DNA from: Acidobacteriaceae bacterium
Lineage (GTDB): Bacteria > Acidobacteriota > Terriglobia > Terriglobales > Acidobacteriaceae
Assembly (NCBI GenBank): GCA_025361625.1
Contig: JANYKL010000091.1
Span: forward strand, 1-46,789
Length of the DNA stretch: 46,789 nt
Direction: 5' to 3'
Shown: in pieces, positions 28,476 to 41,057 of the stretch
Numbering within the stretch: position 1 is the first letter of the stretch
Layout of the letters: every line of letters starts with the position of its first letter
Translations under genes and position numbers: made by a program
Notes under the pieces: generated by a model
Seen by the model: only the letters and a program-made list of their open reading frames with translations
Databases searched by the model: none
What the model was told of the DNA's origin: nothing

Positions 28476-28669
28476 GCTTTCCCTCGGGTCGGGCTAAAGT
28501 TCACTTCAAGGCGTTTGCAAGCGCGTTGCTGAGAATTGCCTCGCGGTCGCAGAGTACTTTGGTAATTCTCCTCGTCACTCGTGAAGGCGGTATTCTAGGG
28601 TCAAATCTCGCCTGTTACCAGTTATATAAGAGTGCCCGCGGGATGGCTGAACAGCGCAAGGAATTTGCT

Positions 28670-31105
28670 ATGGCAATAATATTCAACCGGTTCGAAGTTC
28701 AAAGCGAGTTGTCCAAGTCGGATTCGGCCACAATTTATAAGGCGCTCGACCAGGAAACGAACCAGGTAGTGGCGCTCAAGACGCAGAATCTCGCGCCGCT
28801 CGGTGACCGCGCGTCCGCGTTTGTCGATGCCCTAGTTGCCGAGGGGCTGAGCACGCGTAATCTGGCAGCACAAAATATTGTTCCCATCTATGGCGCCGGC
28901 GAAATCGACGGCCAATTTTCGGCGGCAATGGAGTATATCCAAGGCAACAGCGTAGCCACAATGCTCGCCCGCAATGAAGGGTTTTCGATCTGGGACATTC
29001 TCGATATCAGCCGTCAACTTTGCGCCGGGCTGGAGCAGGCAGCGGCAAAAGGTGTCGCACACTCTTCATTCGAACCGGCAAAAATCATGGTGCAGTGGGA
29101 TGGCATGGTCAAGATCCTGGGCTATGGCATCTCCAAAATGAGTCTGATTGGCGCCGAGTTGGGAAACGGAATGGGACGGCTGACTCCCTACTGCTCTCCG
29201 GAGCAACTTCGCGGAGAGGTTGTCGATTCCCAATCAAACCTGTTTTCTCTGGGTACGATTCTCTACGAGATGGTCGCAGGGCGCAGAGCCTTCAACGCAT
29301 CTGACACGGCCGCGCTGCTCAGCCAGATTGAAAACGACATGCCCCCGAGCCCGACGTCATTGAATCCAAAGATTCTTCCGTCCGTGAGCGCCGTGATTCT
29401 GAAAGCTTTGGCAAAGGATCCGGCTACCCGCTATCGGGACGCACGCGAACTGCTCGACGACCTCGAAAAATGCAAAGAGTCGGGCAAAAAGACAGTGGGG
29501 GAGCCTAAAACAATTACGCCGCCGGCGGGAGTCGCGGTCGACCCGGCGATGCGCACGAGCGCAGCCAATAAGTTTGTCTCTCCCGGCGGCCCGTCGGATC
29601 CCGACCTGACCAATCCTGCGCAGCAGAAGGTTTCCGTTTCTCAGGCTTCAGCTGCCCGGCCTGCAGCGCAAACGCCTGGGCGCCCTGCTGCTACGTCTCC
29701 AGCAAGCCAAGTGCAACTCAGGGCGGCGGCTGCGGCTGGCGTCGGCGCAGGCATGCCTGCAGAAACAGTCTCTACCGGAGCGAACTTTGGGGCGCGGCAG
29801 GTCACCGAATTCGAAGTGAGTTCGACCGCCTCGCCATCTCAAGTTTCGCTGCAGGAAAAGTCGCCGATCATGGTCGATCCCATGATGGCTGAGTCTGCCA
29901 CCGCAGGTTCCGCAGCGGTCCGAAGCTTCTCGGATCTTGCCGAAATGCCACCGCTCAAGGAGCCGGTTTATTCAGCTCCGGTTCCGGAACGGGTTGAGCC
30001 TTCGAATACCACGGTCACGATTTACCCGAAGAAACAAGTCAAACCGAAGATGCAACCGCGCGAAGTGGCCGGAAAGGCAATAAAAGAAATATCGACGGTG
30101 CCGCCGCGGTTGATGCTGTTCGCCATCCTCGGTGCGGTGGGGCTGATACTGGTGGTTGCAGTTGCGCTATTTCTCCACGTGCGGTCGGAAGATGATGGAT
30201 CCACAGCGGCTCCGCATCCGATTCAAGCAACATCGAGCGAGAAAGCGGTTGCGCCGGCGTTAGCGCGGCCGAGCCACACAATCCCAGTTGTGGAGGAAAA
30301 TAAGCCAACCATCAGCGTGCGCCAGCCAGAGAATCGTGCCGCGAAAAAGTCAAAGCGGACGTTTGCTCCAGCGGCCGTCGCAGTCGCCCAGGTCGGGCAA
30401 GCGCTGATCGATTCCGACCCGCAGGGAGCTCAAATTCAAATTGACGGCAACAGTGATCCTGCATGGGTAACTCCATTCAACGTTGCCGGGCTCAGCGCCG
30501 GCAAGCACATCATTTCAGCGAGCAAAGCGAGCTATTCGGCGGATATCCATACGCTCGAAGTGGTCGCGGGCGCTAAGGCCACATTGACCTTGCATCTCAC
30601 GCCCATGAACGCTGTGATCTCTGTATCGAGCAACCCCGCGGGCGCAGCCGTAACTCTGGATGGCAAGGCGACAGGAAAGTTGACCCCCACGCAATTCTCA
30701 ACCGAAAAAGGCTCCCATACCGTCGCTTTGCGCAAGAATGGATACCTGGACGAGAGCGTGACCACAGATCTGGCGGCCGGTCAGAATTTCCAGTTTGCTC
30801 CAACGCTCAAAGCCCTGGGCAATGTCGACAACATCAAGACGGTCGGGAAGATGAACAAGCTGTTCAGCCACGGTAGCGAGAGCACCGCCGGGATGGGTGC
30901 TGTAAGCATCCATACCCAACCGAAAGGCGCGCAGGTTGTTATCAACCAGCGAGTGCTGGATAAATTCTCTCCACTAGAGATCATGCTAGGGCCCGGGAAC
31001 TACGCAGTTGACATCACGTTGACCGGATTCAAGCCCCTTCACAAAGTGGTAACGGTCGAGCGCGGCAGCAAGGCAGCGATCGACGAGATTCTCGAACGGC
31101 AGTAA
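28670..31105 (+). CDS. Membrane-anchored Ser/Thr pseudokinase with three PEGA domains
   Basis: 811 residues from the ATG at 28670, with AAGGAA six bases upstream; ATG 28643 and a longer frame from 28526 are less supported. Residues about 5-270 have a protein kinase fold: Lys37 in VVALK and Glu58 in helix C remain, but the catalytic loop reads HSSFEPAKI (131-139) instead of HRDxKPxN, the metal loop reads GYG (151-153) instead of DFG, the Gly-rich loop is lost (SKSDSAT) and the helix-F Asp is Asn190. The SPE triplet (176-178) stays. About 200 residues of Ala/Pro/Ser-rich linker follow, then a membrane helix (480-503) and three PEGA domains (about 577-646, 647-722, 742-811) outside the membrane. 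It should sense or bind rather than phosphorylate. Confidence 0.9.
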   Translation: MAIIFNRFEVQSELSKSDSATIYKALDQETNQVVALKTQNLAPLGDRASAFVDALVAEGLSTRNLAAQNIVPIYGAGEIDGQFSAAMEYIQGNSVATMLARNEGFSIWDILDISRQLCAGLEQAAAKGVAHSSFEPAKIMVQWDGMVKILGYGISKMSLIGAELGNGMGRLTPYCSPEQLRGEVVDSQSNLFSLGTILYEMVAGRRAFNASDTAALLSQIENDMPPSPTSLNPKILPSVSAVILKALAKDPATRYRDARELLDDLEKCKESGKKTVGEPKTITPPAGVAVDPAMRTSAANKFVSPGGPSDPDLTNPAQQKVSVSQASAARPAAQTPGRPAATSPASQVQLRAAAAAGVGAGMPAETVSTGANFGARQVTEFEVSSTASPSQVSLQEKSPIMVDPMMAESATAGSAAVRSFSDLAEMPPLKEPVYSAPVPERVEPSNTTVTIYPKKQVKPKMQPREVAGKAIKEISTVPPRLMLFAILGAVGLILVVAVALFLHVRSEDDGSTAAPHPIQATSSEKAVAPALARPSHTIPVVEENKPTISVRQPENRAAKKSKRTFAPAAVAVAQVGQALIDSDPQGAQIQIDGNSDPAWVTPFNVAGLSAGKHIISASKASYSADIHTLEVVAGAKATLTLHLTPMNAVISVSSNPAGAAVTLDGKATGKLTPTQFSTEKGSHTVALRKNGYLDESVTTDLAAGQNFQFAPTLKALGNVDNIKTVGKMNKLFSHGSESTAGMGAVSIHTQPKGAQVVINQRVLDKFSPLEIMLGPGNYAVDITLTGFKPLHKVVTVERGSKAAIDEILERQ

Positions 31106-31275: not shown

Positions 31276-31755
31276 TTGTCGTCGCAGCCACTATCAGGCA
31301 TCCCCACGGCGAAGCGATTGAGTGCTGAGCTTTTGCAGGCCATCAAGGCGATACAGTTGCCGCGCAGCTTCTTCAAGGGGGAAATCATTTTTGAGCAGGA
31401 GGCCGCAGTGATGGGTGTCTATGTGGTGGAAGCAGGCGAGGTTGGGATTTCGCTGTCAAGCAGCCATAACCAAAAGCAACTTTTGGAAGTTGCCGGGCTC
31501 GGATGCATGCTGGGGATCGGCGAAACAATGTGCGGCGCAAACTACCGAGTTACCGCCAAAGCCTTCAGCCCAGCGACGGCATCCTTTATTCCGCGAGAAA
31601 AACTGCTCAACCTCTTGAAGGAACACCCATTATTCAGCATGGAAATCATTCGCTTGCTAAGCGAAGAGTTGCATACGCTATACAACAAGTTTCGTAATAT
31701 CAGCGCTCACCCGGGCCGGCCGCGGCGTCGCGAACCCAGCCTGCATCTCAATTGA
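31276..31755 (+). CDS. Stand-alone cyclic-nucleotide-binding domain protein
   Basis: 159 residues with the cNMP-binding beta-roll of the CRP/FNR family: FFKGEIIFEQEA, GVYVVEAGEVGIS, and the phosphate-binding region GCMLGIGETMCGANYRVTAKA, then the hinge helix PLFSMEIIRLLSEELH. The usual helix-turn-helix domain is absent; only a basic tail follows. In the phosphate cassette the canonical Glu and Arg are partly altered, so cAMP or cGMP binding is uncertain. The start is TTG with AGGAG nine bases upstream. It follows the pseudokinase gene by 170 bases on the same strand; a CRP-like palindrome lies between. It may pair with another protein, not bind DNA. Confidence 0.8.
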   Translation: MSSQPLSGIPTAKRLSAELLQAIKAIQLPRSFFKGEIIFEQEAAVMGVYVVEAGEVGISLSSSHNQKQLLEVAGLGCMLGIGETMCGANYRVTAKAFSPATASFIPREKLLNLLKEHPLFSMEIIRLLSEELHTLYNKFRNISAHPGRPRRREPSLHLN

Positions 31756-31929: not shown

Positions 31930-33663
31930 CTAGTCGGCTTTAAAATTAATCGTGATTTCGGTCTGAATTTCAACCGGCTGCCCATCGAGATAGTAGGGCT
32001 TATAGCGCCACTGACGGATGGCCTCCATCGCAGCATGCGCAAGCAACGTGTCGCCGCGGATGACCTTGGGATTCACAACCATTCCCTCTTTATTGACCGT
32101 TGCTTCAATGCGGACCTCGCCTTGAGTATGGGTGGAGCGCGCCGCCGCTGGATATTGAGGAGCAACGCGTTTGATCAAAAGTCCTTGCGAAACGCCTTGG
32201 GACACTTTTAAGCTCGCCAGTGCTGGCTTGGGCAGACTAGCCGTCGTCGAAGCCATGAGACCGCTCAACTTATTGTCGCTTGTGGTTGCGAAAGAACTCG
32301 ACGATGGAGGTGCGATATCTTCGGTTCGTTTGCTGGGCGCAACGCTTGACTTCACATGCACCGGCGCGGCGTTTGCAATCTTCACGGCTAGATCCGAGTT
32401 TGCCGGCTGATCGGCGTCAGAGCCAGCAACGACCCTCACCGTGTTATCAGCGACTGCAGTCGAGGTCTTGGCCATAGACGTCTTGCCGCTAAGCGCAGTA
32501 CGCGCCCCGTTGCCCGGCGTAGAAGCAGGCACCGGCAACGAGCTCGCCGCCCCCGAGTTCGCGGGCTGCGGAGAAACGGGCTGCTGCTGGACAGAAGGCT
32601 GCGAGACGTTCGCTTGAGGCGCGGTGTGACGTTCTGCGGGCTGAACGATTGAGCGATCTTCCGTCGCTGTAGCTGAACTTGAATTGCCGAACTTCTGGTA
32701 CGCGGAATAACCCAAAACTGCCAGCACCAACAAGCACGCCGCGATGAGGAATTTCTTGTTTCCCTGCGAACTCTCGGATTCAACATGATCGAGCGCGAAA
32801 GTTGGAGCATGGCCGGCCACTTGCTGGTTTGCGACTGCTGGACTTCCGGCATGAACTGACTCATATGCGTCGAATTCGGGTGCGCTGTGTGCGGCATTTC
32901 GAAAAGACTGCGCCGCTCCAGTTCTTTCTTCAGCCTTTGCCGAATCGGGCTCAGGAGAAGCAACTTTCGCCGGAGCAACCGCCGCTGCGGATGTAAGGTT
33001 TGAAGCACTCACTTCGGCAACTTGCGCGGCGACTGGCTTTGGAGCTGAGATTTCAGGCGTATGCTTTTCGATTGGCGCAGCCGCCGACATAGCCGCATTG
33101 CCAACTGCGGAGATCGAAGGCGGAACGGTTAATGGCGTTGCCTCATAAGCGGGATTTTTTGACGCCCGCGGCGCGGTTTCTGCGAGCTTCTTTTCCACTG
33201 GCGTACAGTCGACCCGAGACGAAGCAGATGGTTCAGAAGTTTTTGCGGCAGTAGCTGCCGCGGTTGCGCTCGTGGGAGCGCCAGCAGCATCCTGATTCTT
33301 GCGCAGCAATCCTCGAGCTACTCGCAACGTGCCCTTCGCTTGTTCAACATTGATCGGCTTGGTGAGCACAAGGTTCGCGCCGATGCGATATGCTTTCGCG
33401 ACTCCCGCCTGCCCCTCGACCACAGCGATCGCCAGTGAGCTTTGATTCGAAGATGAGTTGCGCGCGCTCTTAAAGAGCAGCGAAGCGTTCTGCTCATTCT
33501 CGCAATCGACGACGATGGCGTCGTAGCGCTGCGCCATCAATTTTTTCACGGCGGCAAAAGGCTCGTGAACCGGTTCGATGGAGAAATCCAGTTCAGCGAA
33601 CACCTGGCTCACAACTCGCGCCACTTTTTCGTCGGGGCAGAAGAGTAATGCTTGGTAACCCAT
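31930..33663 (-). CDS. Receiver domain - membrane helix - TonB C-terminal domain fusion (copy 1)
   Basis: 577 residues. Residues 1-120 form a response-regulator receiver with phospho-acceptor-type Asp53 in DAIVVDCEN and Lys102 in LVLTKPI; the acidic pair is reduced (CPDE) and the Thr/Ser of beta-4 is not evident (VVEG). A Pro/Ala/Ser-rich linker (about 125-303) leads to one membrane helix (304-321, FLIAACLLVLAVLGYSAY). After a second linker, residues about 485-577 form a TonB C-terminal domain: RVAPQYPAAAR, GEVRIEATVNKEG and EAIRQWRYKPYYLDGQPVE. The topology is cytosolic receiver, periplasmic TonB domain. Its paralogue lies upstream (33840-35579). No ExbB/ExbD gene is in the window. Confidence 0.88.
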   Translation of the reverse strand: MGYQALLFCPDEKVARVVSQVFAELDFSIEPVHEPFAAVKKLMAQRYDAIVVDCENEQNASLLFKSARNSSSNQSSLAIAVVEGQAGVAKAYRIGANLVLTKPINVEQAKGTLRVARGLLRKNQDAAGAPTSATAAATAAKTSEPSASSRVDCTPVEKKLAETAPRASKNPAYEATPLTVPPSISAVGNAAMSAAAPIEKHTPEISAPKPVAAQVAEVSASNLTSAAAVAPAKVASPEPDSAKAEERTGAAQSFRNAAHSAPEFDAYESVHAGSPAVANQQVAGHAPTFALDHVESESSQGNKKFLIAACLLVLAVLGYSAYQKFGNSSSATATEDRSIVQPAERHTAPQANVSQPSVQQQPVSPQPANSGAASSLPVPASTPGNGARTALSGKTSMAKTSTAVADNTVRVVAGSDADQPANSDLAVKIANAAPVHVKSSVAPSKRTEDIAPPSSSSFATTSDNKLSGLMASTTASLPKPALASLKVSQGVSQGLLIKRVAPQYPAAARSTHTQGEVRIEATVNKEGMVVNPKVIRGDTLLAHAAMEAIRQWRYKPYYLDGQPVEIQTEITINFKAD

Positions 33664-33672
33664 AATAAAGTT

Positions 33673-33714
33673 ATCGTAGGTAATGGCGTGGGTAGCAGCA
33701 AGTTACGCCGGTAA
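33673..33714 (-). promoter_or_regulatory. Promoter and operator-like repeat of receiver-TonB copy 1
   Basis: On the minus strand: TTAC-CGGC-GTAA inverted repeat (33703-33714), one base, then TTGCTG (33696-33701), 17-base spacer, TACGAT (33673-33678), and nine bases to the ATG. The start of transcription would fall close to the ATG, which fits the absent ribosome site. The repeat centre lies near -42, the position of class II activator sites. Copy 2 has the same arrangement. Confidence 0.6.
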
Positions 33715-33839
33715 TTGGAGTTGTTGAAAAATGGCATTAAATCGTTTCGTCCCATTGCGATTCGGGAGCGGAGAAACGCCAGGTTCGGCTCCTCGGTTCG
33801 GCCCTTAATCCTGCAGTTAAGGGGGTGGCTTCGTCGGCT

Positions 33840-35579
33840 TTACGGTTTCGGGGCGTCGAAGACCACGACGGTCTGGAATGGCTGAGGCTTCCCTTGACGT
33901 TCCAGAGGACGATAGCGCCACTGCCTCACTGCTTCGATCGCGGCTGGGGCGAGTGTAGCGTTGCCATCCACGAGTCGCACTTCGGCGACGTTGCCATCAC
34001 TCTTTACGAAGGTCTTGAGCACGATCGAGCCCTGGGTTCCACGCGCTCGCTCTTCTGCGGAGTACTTCGGTTGCACACTGTAGAGAAGGCGCTTCTGCGC
34101 ACCCTGGGAAGAAAGAATGAGCGTTCCTTTGGCCGACCGGCTGTCAGAATAACTTTCTCGCGTAACCTCTTCTCGCGCAACGTCGACCAGTTTCGGACTT
34201 TCGGATTTTGTCACGCTGGCTTTAGCCAGACTGAGCGAGGGCACAGAGGACGGCTTTATTTCCTGACTGGCCGCAGAATCCAAAAGACTGGTGTTGTCAT
34301 CGAGTGCTGTAGCAGGCTCAGCGGAAGCAGGTAATTTAGGACTCGCGGCTGAATCGGCTGTGACGGGAGTTGCCGAAGCCGACGCGACTGCGTTCGGCTG
34401 AATCGCGGGGCGTTCAAGTGGAATCGCCGCTGGGACGTTCGCAATCTTAGTTGATTTCGACAGGTTGGATTGTGGCAAAGAGACACCAACCTTACCGAGT
34501 GCGCGATTGATCTCAGTTTGCGCCATTGCTTTAAACCCGAGCTGATAATTCCACACCGCGTAGAAGCCTCCCACAGCTAAAGCGAGCATCAGCGTGCCTA
34601 CCAGCATAACGTTCCGCCGCCTTTGAACGGGCACGTGAACATCTGACGTTTGACTGTGATCGCTACGGGCGTTTTCAGGTTTTCTGGAAGGCAACGGTTC
34701 CGCAGACAGCTTGTCGGATTTCGCTATCTCAATCTTTCTTTGCTCTGCTTCCATCTCCGTCAATTCGAGTTCCGCCAGCACAGGATCAAGGGAAGGTTTC
34801 ATTAATAAAGCCGGTCTAGTGCCGGTTACAGGACTTTGAAGCACCGACTTTGGCTCGGACAAGGCAGGTGGCTTAGGCCGTGCCTCGATTTTTTCTTCCG
34901 CCTTCGCCTCTTTTATGTATTCGGTCGTCGAGCGCGAGACGGCTGCTGCGGCCGCGGACCCCGGACTTGTCGATAAACCAGAGGACGCCAAGGCGCTCGC
35001 GGCCGGAGTGACGGTGGGCACCGGTTCGGCATAGCTTGTAAGTTGCGGGGCGGGGATGTCGCCGGCTGTTGCCGTCGAAAAGTCTAAAGGAATGCCGGGT
35101 CCCGTCATCGACGCGCCCATCGACTCACCCATCACGGAAGAGTCCCGATCTTCGTTGGTTTCGCTAGCCTGAAGATGGCCGACGCTGACAGCGACTTGTT
35201 CGGCGGCTGAAGTGTCTTTTCGCACACGACTCACCGCGGTGCGAATCGTGGTGCGAGCCTGATCCTTCGCGACAGGCTTGGTTAAAATCAGCTCTGCGCC
35301 CAATCGAAACGCGGTTGGTAAGCCCGCTCGGCCGTCAACGATGGCGATCGGAACCGGATTATTGCCAGCTTTACCGCGCCTGCAAACGTCAAAGATCAGC
35401 TTTGCTGCCGGCAAATTTTCGCAATCGACCAAAACCAGATCGAAGCTTTGAGAATTAAGTTTTTGAGCCGCGGATACCCCATCCAGCGGGCGTTCGCAAG
35501 TCACCGACATTTCTTCTAAAACGCCAGTAATCGCGCTGACCGCCTGGTCATCCGGGGATAAGAGCAAAGCATGAGCCAT
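33840..35579 (-). CDS. Receiver domain - membrane helix - TonB C-terminal domain fusion (copy 2)
   Basis: 579 residues from the ATG at 35579 (a GTG just upstream, at 35582, is also possible). The plan repeats copy 1: receiver 1-120 with Asp in FDLVLVDCEN (codon 52 from this start) and Lys in LILTKPV, disordered Ala/Pro/Glu-rich linker, RRRN then one membrane helix (about 323-344, VMLVGTLMLALAVGGFYAV), second linker, and TonB domain (about 485-579) with SVQPKYSAEERARG, VLKTFVKSDG and EAVRQWRYRPLERQGKP. The basic residues before the helix support a cytosolic receiver. Receivers of both copies share VDCEN, (A)xVxG and LTKP; linkers are unrelated. The genes are tandem, 176 bases apart, each with its own promoter. 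Confidence 0.88.
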   Translation of the reverse strand: MAHALLLSPDDQAVSAITGVLEEMSVTCERPLDGVSAAQKLNSQSFDLVLVDCENLPAAKLIFDVCRRGKAGNNPVPIAIVDGRAGLPTAFRLGAELILTKPVAKDQARTTIRTAVSRVRKDTSAAEQVAVSVGHLQASETNEDRDSSVMGESMGASMTGPGIPLDFSTATAGDIPAPQLTSYAEPVPTVTPAASALASSGLSTSPGSAAAAAVSRSTTEYIKEAKAEEKIEARPKPPALSEPKSVLQSPVTGTRPALLMKPSLDPVLAELELTEMEAEQRKIEIAKSDKLSAEPLPSRKPENARSDHSQTSDVHVPVQRRRNVMLVGTLMLALAVGGFYAVWNYQLGFKAMAQTEINRALGKVGVSLPQSNLSKSTKIANVPAAIPLERPAIQPNAVASASATPVTADSAASPKLPASAEPATALDDNTSLLDSAASQEIKPSSVPSLSLAKASVTKSESPKLVDVAREEVTRESYSDSRSAKGTLILSSQGAQKRLLYSVQPKYSAEERARGTQGSIVLKTFVKSDGNVAEVRLVDGNATLAPAAIEAVRQWRYRPLERQGKPQPFQTVVVFDAPKP

Positions 35580-35587
35580 CACTCCTC

Positions 35588-35668: not shown

Positions 35669-37417
35669 TTACGGTGTCTTCTGATTTTTGCTGGCCGCCG
35701 ACTGAGGGTCGGGATAAACAATCGCTCCGCGGAAGGTTGATTTGTCGGCTGCGGCATAGTCAGGGAACGGAAGATTTTGCGTATCCCGCCAATGTTGGAC
35801 CTCTTGTTCCGCGGCAGAACCCCGCTCGCGATCAAGGCCGTGGTCGCGCGATAAGTAAAGCGTTTGTGAAGGCAATGCGAAACCGCTGCCAGACTTCTCG
35901 ACGATGTCCATGATGCGCAACAGGAGATCTTCGCGGACCGCGGCGAACTCGTTGGCGTCGCGGGTGAGCACAAAGCTTGTGATCTCGACTCGTAAAGCGC
36001 TGGCGTCGAAGCCCGCGAAACGAATATTCGCGCTGTCGCTCCCCACCTTCGGGTGTTCATACAGCATTCGGCGCACTTCGGCCAGAAGATAGCGCAGTTG
36101 GTCTGCCGTCGTTTCCATTCGTATCGAAAGGGCGGGATTAAAAAATATTTTGTCGCGGCGCGCGAAATTTTCGATGTTCATGGTCGCGAGCGCGCCATTC
36201 GGGATGGAGAGCTCAGTTCGCGCATCCGTGCGCACACGAGTTGATCGCAGGCTAATGTCTTCAACCGTGCCGGTACGATCGCCAAAGCGGCAGTAATCGC
36301 CGACACGAATCACCTCGTCCGCTAATACCGAAATTCCGCCAAATAAATTCTCCAGAGTTTTTTGGGCGGCGAACGCGATGGCGATACCGCCAATGCCGAG
36401 GCCGGCGAGTACCGTGGTCAGATTGAAACCCAGGACTCCGAGTATCGCGAGGATGGCGACAATTACGATGAACGCGGTGAGCAGGCGCTCCCCGAGAACC
36501 ATCAGGGTGCCGGTGCCGATTCGTCCAGAACGGATCGCGCGCGAGCGCAACCGCTGCATGGTGACGCTCGTAGCGCGGAGCAAGAACCAGAAGAAACCGA
36601 AGCTGAAAATGACCCCGATGATGCGGTAGTAATAAAGCCGGCTTAGGAGCGGCAAACCGAGATAGCTGGCCAAAACCCGATGCGCGATCACGCTGAAACA
36701 AATCAGCAAAGGAGTTGACGCCGCCGTGCGATAAGACTGTAGTTCCGGCCGCTTCTTGTATTTAAGCCAAAGCCGGTGCGGGATCGCCAGCAGTAAAACG
36801 CAAGCCCAACCAATTGCGACTGCTACAGGGATCGAGAGAAGAAGCGCGAGCCACTGCCAGAGCGGCATCCCCAGCAAGGAATCGCGCACCAGAACCTGCG
36901 GCAGTTTGTTTTCGACCTGATGAGCCTGGACGTTGTCGTATAAATCTGGAACTCTGCCTAAAGTCTCAGAAGAGAATAGCCAGACTTTACCGGTCGGATA
37001 AACCGCCTGCACCAAAATCACAGGGACATCGGTATCGCCTACAGAGAAACTTCCGATCGTTTGACGGTCCGACGTCCCATACTCGGCGCTGCCCTCGCGG
37101 TTGGTGCTTAATCGGCGCAGGCTTCCTACAAAAGCACGGTCGAGAAGCACTTTCAATTTTTCGGCAAGGTTAACGCCCTGCGATTGCCGGCGCGTGCCGC
37201 TGATCTGCAGGTACTCGGCGGCGGTTTTGTAATCTCCGTCTTGCGCCGCCTGCAAGAATCGCAGCACGGTTTCAGAGGGAGTGTCTCTCCCCAGCGGATC
37301 GCTGCCGGAGTTGGACTCTTGCTTCGCTCCAGACTTCACTAATCCAGAGGGGGATTGGGCCGGCAGCGGGACGCGGGCCAAGCTTAGGACCAGAAATAAG
37401 AGTACGAACTTTTTCAT
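35669..37417 (-). CDS. MscS family mechanosensitive channel with extra exported N-terminal domain
   Basis: 582 residues from ATG 37417; a TTG at 37438 would add seven. A signal peptide (1-21, MKKFVLLFLVLSLARVPLP) leads a periplasmic domain of about 160 residues (SETVLRFLQAAQDGDYKTAAEYL). Membrane helices lie at about 187-213, 236-256, 265-282 and 312-331, then the pore helix (335-365) with the Gly/Ala-rich GLGIGGIAIAFAAQKTLENLF and the beta-domain DYCRFGDRTGTVEDISLRSTRV of MscS. It should open under membrane tension to release solutes after osmotic downshift. It ends just upstream of the promoter of receiver-TonB copy 2 and follows lpd on the same strand. Confidence 0.92.
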   Translation of the reverse strand: MKKFVLLFLVLSLARVPLPAQSPSGLVKSGAKQESNSGSDPLGRDTPSETVLRFLQAAQDGDYKTAAEYLQISGTRRQSQGVNLAEKLKVLLDRAFVGSLRRLSTNREGSAEYGTSDRQTIGSFSVGDTDVPVILVQAVYPTGKVWLFSSETLGRVPDLYDNVQAHQVENKLPQVLVRDSLLGMPLWQWLALLLSIPVAVAIGWACVLLLAIPHRLWLKYKKRPELQSYRTAASTPLLICFSVIAHRVLASYLGLPLLSRLYYYRIIGVIFSFGFFWFLLRATSVTMQRLRSRAIRSGRIGTGTLMVLGERLLTAFIVIVAILAILGVLGFNLTTVLAGLGIGGIAIAFAAQKTLENLFGGISVLADEVIRVGDYCRFGDRTGTVEDISLRSTRVRTDARTELSIPNGALATMNIENFARRDKIFFNPALSIRMETTADQLRYLLAEVRRMLYEHPKVGSDSANIRFAGFDASALRVEITSFVLTRDANEFAAVREDLLLRIMDIVEKSGSGFALPSQTLYLSRDHGLDRERGSAAEQEVQHWRDTQNLPFPDYAAADKSTFRGAIVYPDPQSAASKNQKTP

Positions 37418-37434
37418 GCAATGAACTTCTTCAT
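37414..37434 (-). other. Six-codon leader ORF (MKKFIA) overlapping the mscS start
   Basis: ATGAAGAAGTTCATTGC is followed by the near-copy ATGAAAAAGTTCGTACTC that begins the channel gene. The first copy is read as MKKFIA and its TGA overlaps the channel ATG (ATGA). It looks like a 17-base tandem duplication of the gene start that made a coupled mini-ORF. Function is unproven. Confidence 0.4.
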
Positions 37435-37473
37435 ACAATCACCGGCGGTGGCATCGGCGGCTTTTTCCGGCAC

Positions 37474-37559: not shown

Positions 37560-38981
37560 CTAGCGTTTAGGACGATAAATGTCGGTGGCTTGACCGTAGA
37601 AAACTTCCGCCCCTTCCATCATTGTTTCGGAAAGCGTGGGGTGGGGGTGGATCGTCATGCCGACATCGGCCGCGAGCGCACACATTTCGATGGCGAGAAC
37701 ACCTTCGGCGATCAGTTCGCCAGCGCCCGCTCCGACGATGCCTACGCCGAGCACGCGTTCTGTTTTCGGATCGATGAGCAATTTGGTGAGACCCTCTGGC
37801 CGGTCTATCGTGATCGCGCGGCCTGATGCAGCCCAGGGAAATTTTGCGACCGTAATTTCGCGGCCTTGTTCTTTGGCCTGCGTTTCGGTGAGTCCAGCCC
37901 AGGCGATTTCAGGATCGGTGAAGACGACGGCCGGTATAGCATTGGGCTCGAACGCGACTTTGTGTCCGGCAATCGCCTCGACCGCGGTGCGACCTTCGTG
38001 CATCGCTTTGTGCGCGAGCATCGGCTCCCCAGCAACATCGCCGATGGCGTAGACGGTCGGCTCTGCGGTCTGTCGTTGACCGTTGATTTCGATAAAACCC
38101 TTTTGGTTGACTTTTACCTTTGTTTTGTCGAGCCCGGCGATTTCGGAGTTGGGCCGGCGACCGACCGACATCAGCACGCGATCGAAAACCTGCTCTTTTT
38201 CTTTAACATTCGGCCCTTCGAGGCTGACACGGATTCCGTTCTTTTCTTCTTTCAGCGATTTGACGGTGGTGTTGAGAAGAATCGCGGAGAAAAGTTTTTC
38301 GAGGCGCTTGTGAAGGGGCAAAACTAAGTCGCGATCGGCGCCGGGCAGAAGGCCGGGCAGCATTTCAACGCACGTCACTTTGGTGCCGAGCGTGGCATAG
38401 ACCGAGCCGAGTTCCAGCCCGATGTAGCCGCCGCCGATGACCAGTAGAGTCTTTGGAATTTCAGGAAGGTCAAGGGCGCCGGAAGAATCCATGAGGCGCG
38501 GGCTGTCGATCTTCAGGCTCGGAACCATGGTCGGCCGGGAACCGGTGGCGATGATGATGCGATCAAAGCTTAAGGTTTCGTCTCCGCCTGCGGTTTTTGT
38601 AACTTTTAGCGTCGTGCCGTTGACGAAGGCCGCTTTGCCTTGCACGAATTCGACTTTGCGTTGTTTGGATAGTTGTCCGAGGCCACCGGTCAGTTTCTTG
38701 ACGACACTCTCTTTCCATCCGCGCAGCTTGTTCAGATCAATCTTTGGCTCGGAAAACTCGATGCCCCAATTCTTCGCTTGTTCGGCTTCTTCAAGAAGCT
38801 TTGCGACATGCAGCAAAGCTTTTGAGGGAATGCAACCGCGATAAAGGCAGACGCCGCCGGGATTGACCTCGGGGTCAATCATGGTAACTTTCATGCCGAG
38901 ATCGGCGGCGAGAAATGCAGCGGCGTATCCGCCGGGACCGCCGCCGATTACAGCCACCCGAAGATTCGATGATTCAGCCAT
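37560..38981 (-). CDS. lpdA: Dihydrolipoyl dehydrogenase (E3)
   Basis: E3 reoxidises dihydrolipoamide on E2 using FAD and NAD. From ATG 38981 it has 473 residues; AAGGA lies upstream. The frame is open to 39095 but the extra 38 residues are not family-like. FAD loop [12 protein letters not shown] (11-22), redox pair [13 protein letters not shown] (Cys45, Cys50), NAD loop [12 protein letters not shown] and the C-terminal HPHPTLSE His-Glu pair are all present. It closes the aceE-aceF-lpd series, 234 bases after aceF. The GGVCLYRGC form is a known variant of the usual GGTCLNVGC. Confidence 0.95.
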
Positions 38982-39215
38982 TTTTTTATTGATCCTTAAT
39001 AAATAAGATTTGTTTCGGTGTGGAGCGGACACTCCGATCCGCTGCTCTTGATTACAAATTTGGTCACAAGCTCTTCGCGTTACATTGGTTTCCATTTTCG
39101 TTTTTCTGGCGTAGCGCGTCGTTGCCAGACGAAATCCTTAAGCTTCGGTCTCCAACTGCAATCAACCGTGAAGTTCAATTCAAATGCAGGCGGACAAGAG
39201 GTCGGTCCCATCCAA

Positions 39216-41057
39216 TCACCCCTGCACCGAAAGCAGGAACGGCTGCTCAAAGGCCTCGGCAATCCAGCGCAGGAATCGCGCAGCATCGGCGCCATCGATC
39301 AACCGGTGATCGTACGAGAGCGAGAGCGGAAGAATCAAGCGCGGCTCAAATTTGCTGTTCACCCACTCCGGCTCCGTGCGAGAGCGCGAGAGGCCAAGGA
39401 TTGCGACCTCGGGATGATTCACAATCGGAGAAAACCCGGTGCCGCCGATGCCTCCAAGATTGGTGATGGTGAAGGTCCCGCCTTCCATTTCATCGACGGT
39501 AATCTTTTTTTCGCGCGCTTTCTTCGAAAGCTGCGTCATTTCAACCGCTAGTTCGACAATATTTTTCTTGTCGACGTCGCGGATCACGGGCACCAGGAGG
39601 CCGCGGTCAGTATCAACCGCAACTCCGATATTGATGTACTGCTTGTAGATGATTTCTTCTTTCCCCGTATCAATGGAGGCGTTGAATTGCGGAAATACTT
39701 TCAGCGCAGAAGCGCAAACTTTGAGCGCGATCGCCGTCACCGTCATCTTGCCACCCGCCTCTTCAGCACGCGGCGAAAACTTTGAACGGAGATGCTCAAG
39801 TTCGGTTATGTCGGCGCGGTCTTGCTGCGTGACGTGTGGAATCGTATTCCATGCCTGGCGAAGATGTTCGGCGGTTTTACGTCGAACACCGCGCATCGAG
39901 ACGTGCTCGACCTTGCCCCACTTGCCGAAGTCGGGCAATTCAGGATCGACGAAACCTCCGCGCGGAGATTGCGCCGCGGCGGCAGCCTCCATCAAAGCAT
40001 TCTTGGCGGCACGCTTGACGTCGTCTTCGCTGATGCGTCCGCCGGGGCCAGAGCCTTGAATGCTGTGAATGTCGACTCCGATTTCGCGGGCCAGCCGGCG
40101 CACATGCGGAGCAGCAGGAACGGGGTCGCGATGCTCGGTGCCTGCAACTTTGCCAAGTTGAACCGGCATGCTGAAAGTTTCTTTTTCGGTGACCGGGCGA
40201 TCCGGCGGCAGCGCCTCCTGTTCGGTCTTACCTTCGGCTCGAATTGCCAATTGGAACGACAGGCGCGCGCTTTGCTGGTCGGATGTGTGCTCGACGGGCT
40301 CGTGCTTGCGAGGTGGCGTGGGGGGTTGAACTCCGCCTTCGAGCGTGAAGATGACGTCGCCTACCTTCACCTTCTGCCCTTCTTTGACTTTCACCTCACG
40401 AACCTTTCCACTCACTGAGGAAGGAACTTCGACGACAGCTTTATCAGTTTCAAGTTCCATGACGGGCTGGCCTTCGGCAACTGTTGCACCGGCCGTTATC
40501 ATGAGGCGTACGAGGTCGCCCGACTCGACGTTCTCGCCGAGTTCAGGCAGCCTGAATTCACTCGGAGTGGCCGCGGCCCGCGGCTTTCGACGTTCGGCGT
40601 GAGGAGCAGATGATTCTTGTTGCATTGCCGCAGGTTGGGCATCGGCTTCGGCAGCTGACTTTGGAGCATCCGGCTTCGCGCTGATGTCCTCGTTGGCAAC
40701 AGACTTCCGTGGAGCTGATCCGGCAGGAGTCGGCCTTTGGCGGTCCGTCTCTGAATCGGTTGCGGGCGGGGAGGAAACGGCGGCCTGAGATTTGGTTTTA
40801 GTTTTTGCTTCAGCTCCAGCACCGTTTTCGATCGTAAAGATGACCTGTCCAACTCGCAGCTTGTCGCCTTCTTTGACCCTAACTTCCTCGATTCTGCCGG
40901 TGACCGACGATGGAACCTCGACCACTGCCTTATCGGTCTCGAGTTCCATCACGGCCTGGCCTTCGGCAATGTCAGCGCCGGGATGAATCATCAAGCGGAC
41001 AAGATCTCCAGTTTCTATATTTTCGCCCAACTCGGGCAGCTTAAATTCTGTCGGCAT
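39216..41057 (-). CDS. aceF: Dihydrolipoyllysine acetyltransferase (E2 of pyruvate dehydrogenase)
   Basis: E2 forms the core of the complex and transfers acetyl groups to CoA. Its 613 residues contain two lipoyl domains (2-78 and 165-242) with lipoyl-lysine in LETDKAVVEVPS at Lys43 and Lys206, an E1/E3-binding domain (315-352, HVRRLAREIGVDIHSIQGSG) and a catalytic domain ending with the SYDHRLIDGADA active site (His, Asp). The two lipoyl domains are close copies, separated by an Ala/Ser/Lys-rich linker. It starts 157 bases after aceE, across which a dispersed repeat lies. Confidence 0.96.
   Translation of the reverse strand: MPTEFKLPELGENIETGDLVRLMIHPGADIAEGQAVMELETDKAVVEVPSSVTGRIEEVRVKEGDKLRVGQVIFTIENGAGAEAKTKTKSQAAVSSPPATDSETDRQRPTPAGSAPRKSVANEDISAKPDAPKSAAEADAQPAAMQQESSAPHAERRKPRAAATPSEFRLPELGENVESGDLVRLMITAGATVAEGQPVMELETDKAVVEVPSSVSGKVREVKVKEGQKVKVGDVIFTLEGGVQPPTPPRKHEPVEHTSDQQSARLSFQLAIRAEGKTEQEALPPDRPVTEKETFSMPVQLGKVAGTEHRDPVPAAPHVRRLAREIGVDIHSIQGSGPGGRISEDDVKRAAKNALMEAAAAAQSPRGGFVDPELPDFGKWGKVEHVSMRGVRRKTAEHLRQAWNTIPHVTQQDRADITELEHLRSKFSPRAEEAGGKMTVTAIALKVCASALKVFPQFNASIDTGKEEIIYKQYINIGVAVDTDRGLLVPVIRDVDKKNIVELAVEMTQLSKKAREKKITVDEMEGGTFTITNLGGIGGTGFSPIVNHPEVAILGLSRSRTEPEWVNSKFEPRLILPLSLSYDHRLIDGADAARFLRWIAEAFEQPFLLSVQG

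Follow-up and report, generated by a model that had tools for sequence, protein, structure and literature searches.

The usual picture of TonB is of a rod that is driven by a motor and has next to nothing in the cytosol. The SHLS motor motif of its N-terminal helix is named in PMC12204202. GltG (PglI), a protein of Myxococcus xanthus gliding with matches to FHA and TonB_C, is bitopic and was proposed as an envelope-spanning coupler; a two-hybrid assay showed its interaction with AglR (PMC3169522). SjdR of Anabaena, formerly annotated as TonB1, has a cytosolic part, a central helix and a periplasmic part, with GltJ-like similarity, and its mutant has altered septal peptidoglycan (PMC8262864). 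Among receiver domains, aspartate-less receivers (ALRs) are enriched with rarer outputs, and Acidobacteria are among the groups with most of them per genome (PMC4395418). Here we describe two adjacent genes, P_A and P_B, of an Acidobacteriaceae bacterium (assembly GCA_025361625.1), in a window of 46,789 nucleotides (contig JANYKL010000091.1, positions 1 to 46,789). Their products join a degenerate receiver to a TonB_C domain through a single membrane helix. We favour, with moderate confidence, the view that these proteins, with their GltG-like layout, act as docking tethers that link the envelope to a partner in the cytosol without being phosphorylated.

P_A (31930-33663, minus strand, 577 residues) consists of a pseudo-receiver (residues 1-128), a disordered linker, a transmembrane helix (304-325), a second disordered linker and a TonB_C domain (about 496-575). 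P_B (33840-35579, minus strand, 579 residues) has the same order: pseudo-receiver (1-136), linker, transmembrane helix (321-345), linker and TonB_C (about 498-576). The pseudo-receivers are encoded at 33289-33663 in P_A and at 35205-35579 in P_B. We read P_B from the ATG at 35579, which is preceded by AGGAG; the list of open reading frames (ORFs) had placed its start at the GTG at 35582. TonB_C matched both proteins above the curated Pfam cut-off (E 2.2e-18 for P_A, 1.6e-13 for P_B), whereas the Response_reg matches (PF00072) fell below the gathering cut-off of 30.2 (P_A, E 2.6e-4 and 21.6 bits; P_B, E 1.9e-3 and 18.8 bits). A genome-wide receiver search scored them at 25.1 and 22.7 bits, two of the 6 matches, out of 71, that lay under the cut-off.

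Structure prediction gave both end domains with high confidence in both proteins. AlphaFold2 models, built from 38 aligned sequences for P_A and 26 for P_B, had a predicted local distance difference test score of 90-96 in the block of residues 1-120 of P_A and 87-96 in its C-terminal domain from 491 on; the corresponding blocks of P_B scored 88-97 and 84-97. The P_A model also placed a helix at 304-325, and that of P_B showed an extra helix at 266-288 and a membrane helix continuing to 363. Foldseek, run with the P_A model only, matched receiver 7c1j (template modelling (TM) score 0.81 on the target) and the TonB C-terminal domains 6i97_D (bound to FoxA; TM score 0.85, root-mean-square deviation (rmsd) 1.2), 1u07_A and 2gsk_B. 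A VIA alignment of the P_A model with receiver 1ny5_A (Z 18.0, rmsd 1.9 over 129 residues) covered mainly residues 1-130 and is silent on TonB_C. The P_A model has the (beta-alpha)5 receiver fold, and P_B was judged to have it from the secondary structure of its model alone. When the P_A receiver profile was compared with the sequences of solved structures, 22 sequences matched at E <= 0.01 (best E 1.3e-5); apart from one designed protein they were CheY and further response regulators. Thus a sequence-only reading of the region, which had seen two tandem proteins with a receiver, a linker, one helix and a TonB C-terminal domain, was confirmed by Pfam, AlphaFold2 and, for P_A, Foldseek, with the qualification that the receiver match stays under its Pfam cut-off.

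Relatives of the P_A receiver were confirmed at 98 loci, 80 of which were kept, all of them acidobacterial by record title. These relatives, together with a P_B-type receiver ORF that recurs upstream at part of the loci, show that the arrangement is not due to chance. TonB_C lay within the same ORF at 73 of the 80 loci; of the other seven, four were cut by a contig end, in two a TonB_C followed shortly downstream in a different frame, and one (L119) ended in PEGA. One hydrophobic stretch followed residue 110 in 73 of 74 P_A-type ORFs with a stop. A basic motif precedes the helix, GGSKK in the P_A consensus and QRRR in P_B. Because basic residues mark the cytosolic side of a membrane helix (the positive-inside rule), the receiver is probably in the cytosol.

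No part of P_A is better conserved than the receiver. Over an alignment of 72 rows (71 of the 80 loci and the window), mean pairwise identity was 83% in the receiver, 65% in TonB_C and 20% in the middle. Ratios of non-synonymous to synonymous substitution (dN/dS), from sequences drawn from the clade that possesses P_B, had medians of 0.059 for the P_A receiver (median dS 1.25; 104 of 120 pairs, 16 sequences) and 0.038 for that of P_B (median dS 1.14; 155 of 171 pairs, 19 sequences). A dN/dS figure for TonB_C was set aside, because its codons had been taken without gaps. The selection that the sequence-only reading had assumed on the end domains is borne out by these values. The two genes do not always go together, P_A occurring without P_B at many loci.

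To establish which active-site residues remain, we aligned both receivers to seven strong canonical receivers of the same genome. In place of the acidic pair at the end of beta1, P_A has Cys-Pro and P_B has Ser-Pro, and both carry Ala where the switch Thr/Ser would stand. The phospho-acceptor Asp and the Lys are retained, as Asp53 and Lys102 in P_A and Asp52 and Lys101 in P_B. This corrects the earlier view that only the second acid was weakened, and agrees with it on the Asp and Lys. The broken site is itself conserved across the P_A rows (Cys9 72/72, Pro10 70/72, Ala80 70/72), as are Asp53 (70/72) and Lys102 (72/72). Directly after the lost pair stand Asp11 (65/72) and Glu12 (66/72).

Receivers without the usual acidic pair are unlikely to undergo Mg-dependent phosphorylation, and with that pair missing, phosphorylation of P_A and P_B appears unlikely. 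A classical response regulator, in which phosphorylated Asp53 would switch outer-membrane energy coupling, could draw on the conserved Asp53, Lys102, Asp11 and Glu12; it has to accommodate the replaced acidic pair and switch residue, and Pfam, applied to 23 of the 63 window ORFs of at least 120 residues, found no histidine kinase. We demoted this reading on the loss of the acidic pair and switch residue, seen in the 72 P_A rows and against the seven canonical receivers, and regard it as very improbable.

The membrane helix gave no sign of a motor motif, which we scored by its SxxxH spacing. A count of any His in wider helix segments (27/72 P_A, 2/22 P_B) is too crude a measure, and this test took its place. 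SxxxH was absent from all 73 P_A and all 23 P_B helix segments. Ten further TonB_C proteins from the genome were tried; six were resolved, and four of these had the motif (L001, L017, L025 and L026, but not L002 or L004). No MotA_ExbB match was found on the contig of the window (C145), the three matches of the genome lying on C151, C159 and C185; exbD was not searched for. The genome has 13 Plug matches.

These data bear on one of the two main rivals to the docking tether, an energised TonB variant whose helix would engage ExbB/ExbD, or some other motor, by another motif, with the pseudo-receiver only regulating assembly. The intact TonB_C domain (by sequence and predicted fold) and the MotA_ExbB and Plug matches are in its favour, as is L002: this protein, the sole TonB of the genome encoded beside ExbB, also lacks SxxxH, so the motif is not decisive and a motor link is possible. 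With the helix internal instead of N-terminal, no SxxxH in any segment and no MotA_ExbB match on the contig, we consider this variant quite unlikely. The absence of SxxxH and of a MotA_ExbB match on the contig, together with the Cys-Pro and Ser-Pro replacements, the Ala switch and the lack of a histidine kinase among the scanned ORFs, leaves without support the proposal of the sequence-only reading that phosphorylation acts on outer-membrane energy coupling. The alternative it had offered, binding of a partner by an unphosphorylated receiver, is favoured.

As docking tethers, P_A and P_B would be single-pass inner-membrane proteins with the degenerate receiver in the cytosol, where it may act, independently of phosphorylation, in docking or dimerisation. 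TonB C-terminal domains bind partners by strand addition, and in this way TonB_C could reach an outer-membrane or periplasmic partner through the long flexible periplasmic linker. Such a protein would couple the outer envelope, with no ExbB/ExbD drive, to the state or location of a partner in the cytosol. Conservation within the P_A receiver, as mean top-residue frequency, was high on the alpha4-beta5-alpha5 face (beta5 1.00, alpha5 0.96, alpha4 0.95) and lower in alpha1 (0.82) and beta2 (0.69).

Several points weigh against this reading. A pure docking domain does not need a near-invariant Asp53 and Lys102, and Asp11 and Glu12 may form a shifted metal site. Beta1 (0.97) and alpha3 (0.95) match the conservation of the alpha4-beta5-alpha5 face, in figures that take no account of residue exposure, and the locus search patterns sat in alpha2 and alpha4, which biases both elements; for these reasons the argument for a docking face is soft. 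The predicted TM-score (pTM) of the models was 0.34 for P_A and 0.35 for P_B, so that the relative placement of the domains, joined by long disordered linkers, is undefined. L002, as described above, counts here too, and our analysis yielded no partner of P_A or P_B.

How do P_A and P_B compare with the described systems? With GltG they have in common a cytosolic signalling domain, a transmembrane helix and TonB_C, given the cytosolic receiver suggested above. GltG has FHA, whereas P_A and P_B have a receiver and no FHA match in Pfam up to E 1; and GltG is encoded with glt genes, whereas the P_A/P_B contig has no MotA_ExbB match (other Agl/Glt families were not searched for). The layout of cytosolic signalling domain, helix and TonB_C is already known from GltG. 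TonB energy transducers resemble P_A and P_B in the sequence and predicted fold of TonB_C and in a long low-complexity linker, but differ from them in the N-terminal receiver, the internal helix and the missing SxxxH. SjdR shares the order of cytosolic part, central helix and periplasmic part, but has no receiver. ALRs share the receiver fold and the broken phosphorylation site; P_A and P_B retain the Asp and have lost the acidic pair instead. The main text of the ALR paper (PMC4395418) does not mention TonB, the main text of PMC12204202 has no kinase, receiver or acidobacterial entry, and the text of PMC4558063 does not mention TonB. Among the open-licence papers searched, judged mostly from search listings, we recognised no description of a receiver-helix-TonB_C or receiver-kinase-TonB_C protein.

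The gene order around P_A recurs at many loci as lpd, mscS, (P_B) and P_A, followed by convergent genes for a cyclic-nucleotide-binding protein (like P_B, not always present) and a kinase-PEGA protein. A P_B-type receiver ORF lay upstream at 22 of the 64 loci having at least 2 kb of upstream sequence. Operon signals did not exceed those of shuffled sequence (promoter-like sites, 2 observed and 3.2 in shuffles; terminator-like sites, 8 and 11.1). A phylum-wide spread of P_A was rejected: its profile at E <= 1e-20, with at most 11 candidates scored per genome, matched 6 of 396 genomes, all of them its own or of the same family, and matches of P_A strength (E < 1e-70) occurred in two, its own and G006. 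A looser profile from five receivers, with a threshold of E <= 1e-5, reached 89 of 100 genomes in the family; its matches combine receiver-TonB with receiver-PilZ proteins and may include further receivers. All 20 genes picked from it had a receiver; because TonB_C was present in 8 and absent from 12, the receiver-TonB proteins of the family seem to fall into several orthogroups.

Receivers of this type that lack TonB_C are thus common in the family, and L021 of the same genome is a receiver-PilZ protein whose receiver is similarly degenerate (Pfam); such proteins have a PilZ output and no TonB_C. This brings in the other main rival, an outside-in sensor in which TonB_C would respond to events at the outer membrane or in the periplasm; the pseudo-receiver would then pass the signal to an effector in the cytosol, for example a receiver-PilZ protein. 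The occurrence of similar receivers with and without TonB_C makes receiver-receiver contacts plausible. With no receiver-PilZ gene among the 23 scanned window ORFs, we regard the sensor as unlikely, though less so than the energised variant.

The neighbours of P_A include a further degenerate signalling protein. A Ser/Thr pseudokinase with three PEGA repeats (28526-31105, plus strand; by reading, with a hydrophobic stretch between and a true start probably further in) is convergent to P_A, is syntenic with it at many loci and may be a functional neighbour of the docking tethers. HRD is changed to HSS and DFG to GYG, and the Lys is retained. Across this protein and its syntenic orthologs (L059, L060, L062, L071, L096, L111, L118, L123, L135 and L148) the Mg-binding Asp of DFG is lost in 11 of 11 sequences and the catalytic Asp of HRD in each of the 10 that could be read. 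The 20 kinase matches of the genome correspond to 18 proteins (two matches lie in one protein and one is an 85-residue fragment), 16 of which have both HRD and DFG. Since the only two without them are this pseudokinase and L018, which are joined to PEGA and TonB_C, respectively, degenerate cytosolic domains recur. At L119 (2338-4140) a P_A half, pseudo-receiver and helix, continues into a PEGA region resembling the one in the pseudokinase, either as a genuine fusion or through rearrangement or misassembly.

Between the pseudokinase and P_A lies a gene for a small protein with a cyclic-nucleotide-binding domain (31276-31755, plus strand), relatives of which occur at 19 of the 80 P_A loci, 17 of these with P_B. 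Upstream and co-directional with P_B is an MscS-type mechanosensitive channel (35669-37438, minus strand), followed by an LpdA-like dihydrolipoamide dehydrogenase (37560-39095, minus strand; named by reading the sequence) and, next to it, a 2-oxoacid dehydrogenase acyltransferase (39216-41057); all three are recurrent neighbours. Near P_A in several genera is also a protein of about 700 residues with an HEMGH motif (L063, 10716-12845; L065, 6386-8563; L072, 5397-7514; L077, 9385-11430), a candidate metallopeptidase-like protein that has no Pfam match at 0.001.

TonB_C fusions are not confined to this locus. The genome has 16 TonB_C matches, P_A and P_B included. L019 is a third receiver-type fusion, its receiver recognised by alignment and unseen by Pfam, and L018 joins a kinase to a TonB_C whose score borders on the Pfam cut-off and exceeds the NCBIfam one; both have a hydrophobic stretch between the domains. 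So does a PilZ-TonB_C protein of the same genome (L028, 205-1104). Among the matches listed, TonB_C was present in 24 of 24 genomes of a phylum sample, from which 40 long ORFs were taken and 20, chosen by eye, were scanned with Pfam. Six of the 20, from four other families, were receiver-kinase-TonB_C proteins (L183, L186, L191, L198, L200 and L203), one (L192) was a kinase-TonB_C protein without a Pfam receiver, two were kinase-PEGA-TonB_C, five kinase-TonB_C, one GGDEF-TonB_C and one zinc-ribbon-TonB_C, and four had TonB_C only. The six receiver-kinase proteins resemble P_A and P_B in their N-terminal receiver, hydrophobic stretch and C-terminal TonB_C (with additional hydrophobic stretches in L186 and L203), but have a Ser/Thr kinase and are opposite on the phospho-Asp, which is gone from all six. 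HRD and DFG are retained in these six and in L192; both are missing from four of the five kinase-TonB_C proteins, the fifth (L212) being unclear to read. Of the kinase-PEGA-TonB_C proteins, L211 is intact and L208 lacks HRD. A hydrophobic stretch also lies between the domains of the GGDEF-TonB_C protein (L205, 121-1482) and of the zinc-ribbon-TonB_C protein (L178, 171-1547), which we take to resemble GltJ.

Tentatively, and with more doubt than for the docking role itself, these proteins could form a modular system of inside-to-envelope signalling in Acidobacteriota. Cytosolic receiver, kinase, PilZ, GGDEF or zinc-ribbon domains, often catalytically dead, would be combined with periplasmic TonB_C, PEGA or both, mechanically tying the cytosolic state to outer-membrane partners; P_A and P_B with the pseudokinase-PEGA protein would be a split version of receiver-kinase-TonB_C. 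P_A and P_B belong to a little-described group of inside-to-envelope linker proteins. The near-invariant pseudo-receiver provides a clear handle for finding the partner, and with a strongly conserved signalling-type domain at the end of the tether opposite TonB_C, the cytosol would have a direct means of influencing, or sensing, the outer membrane.

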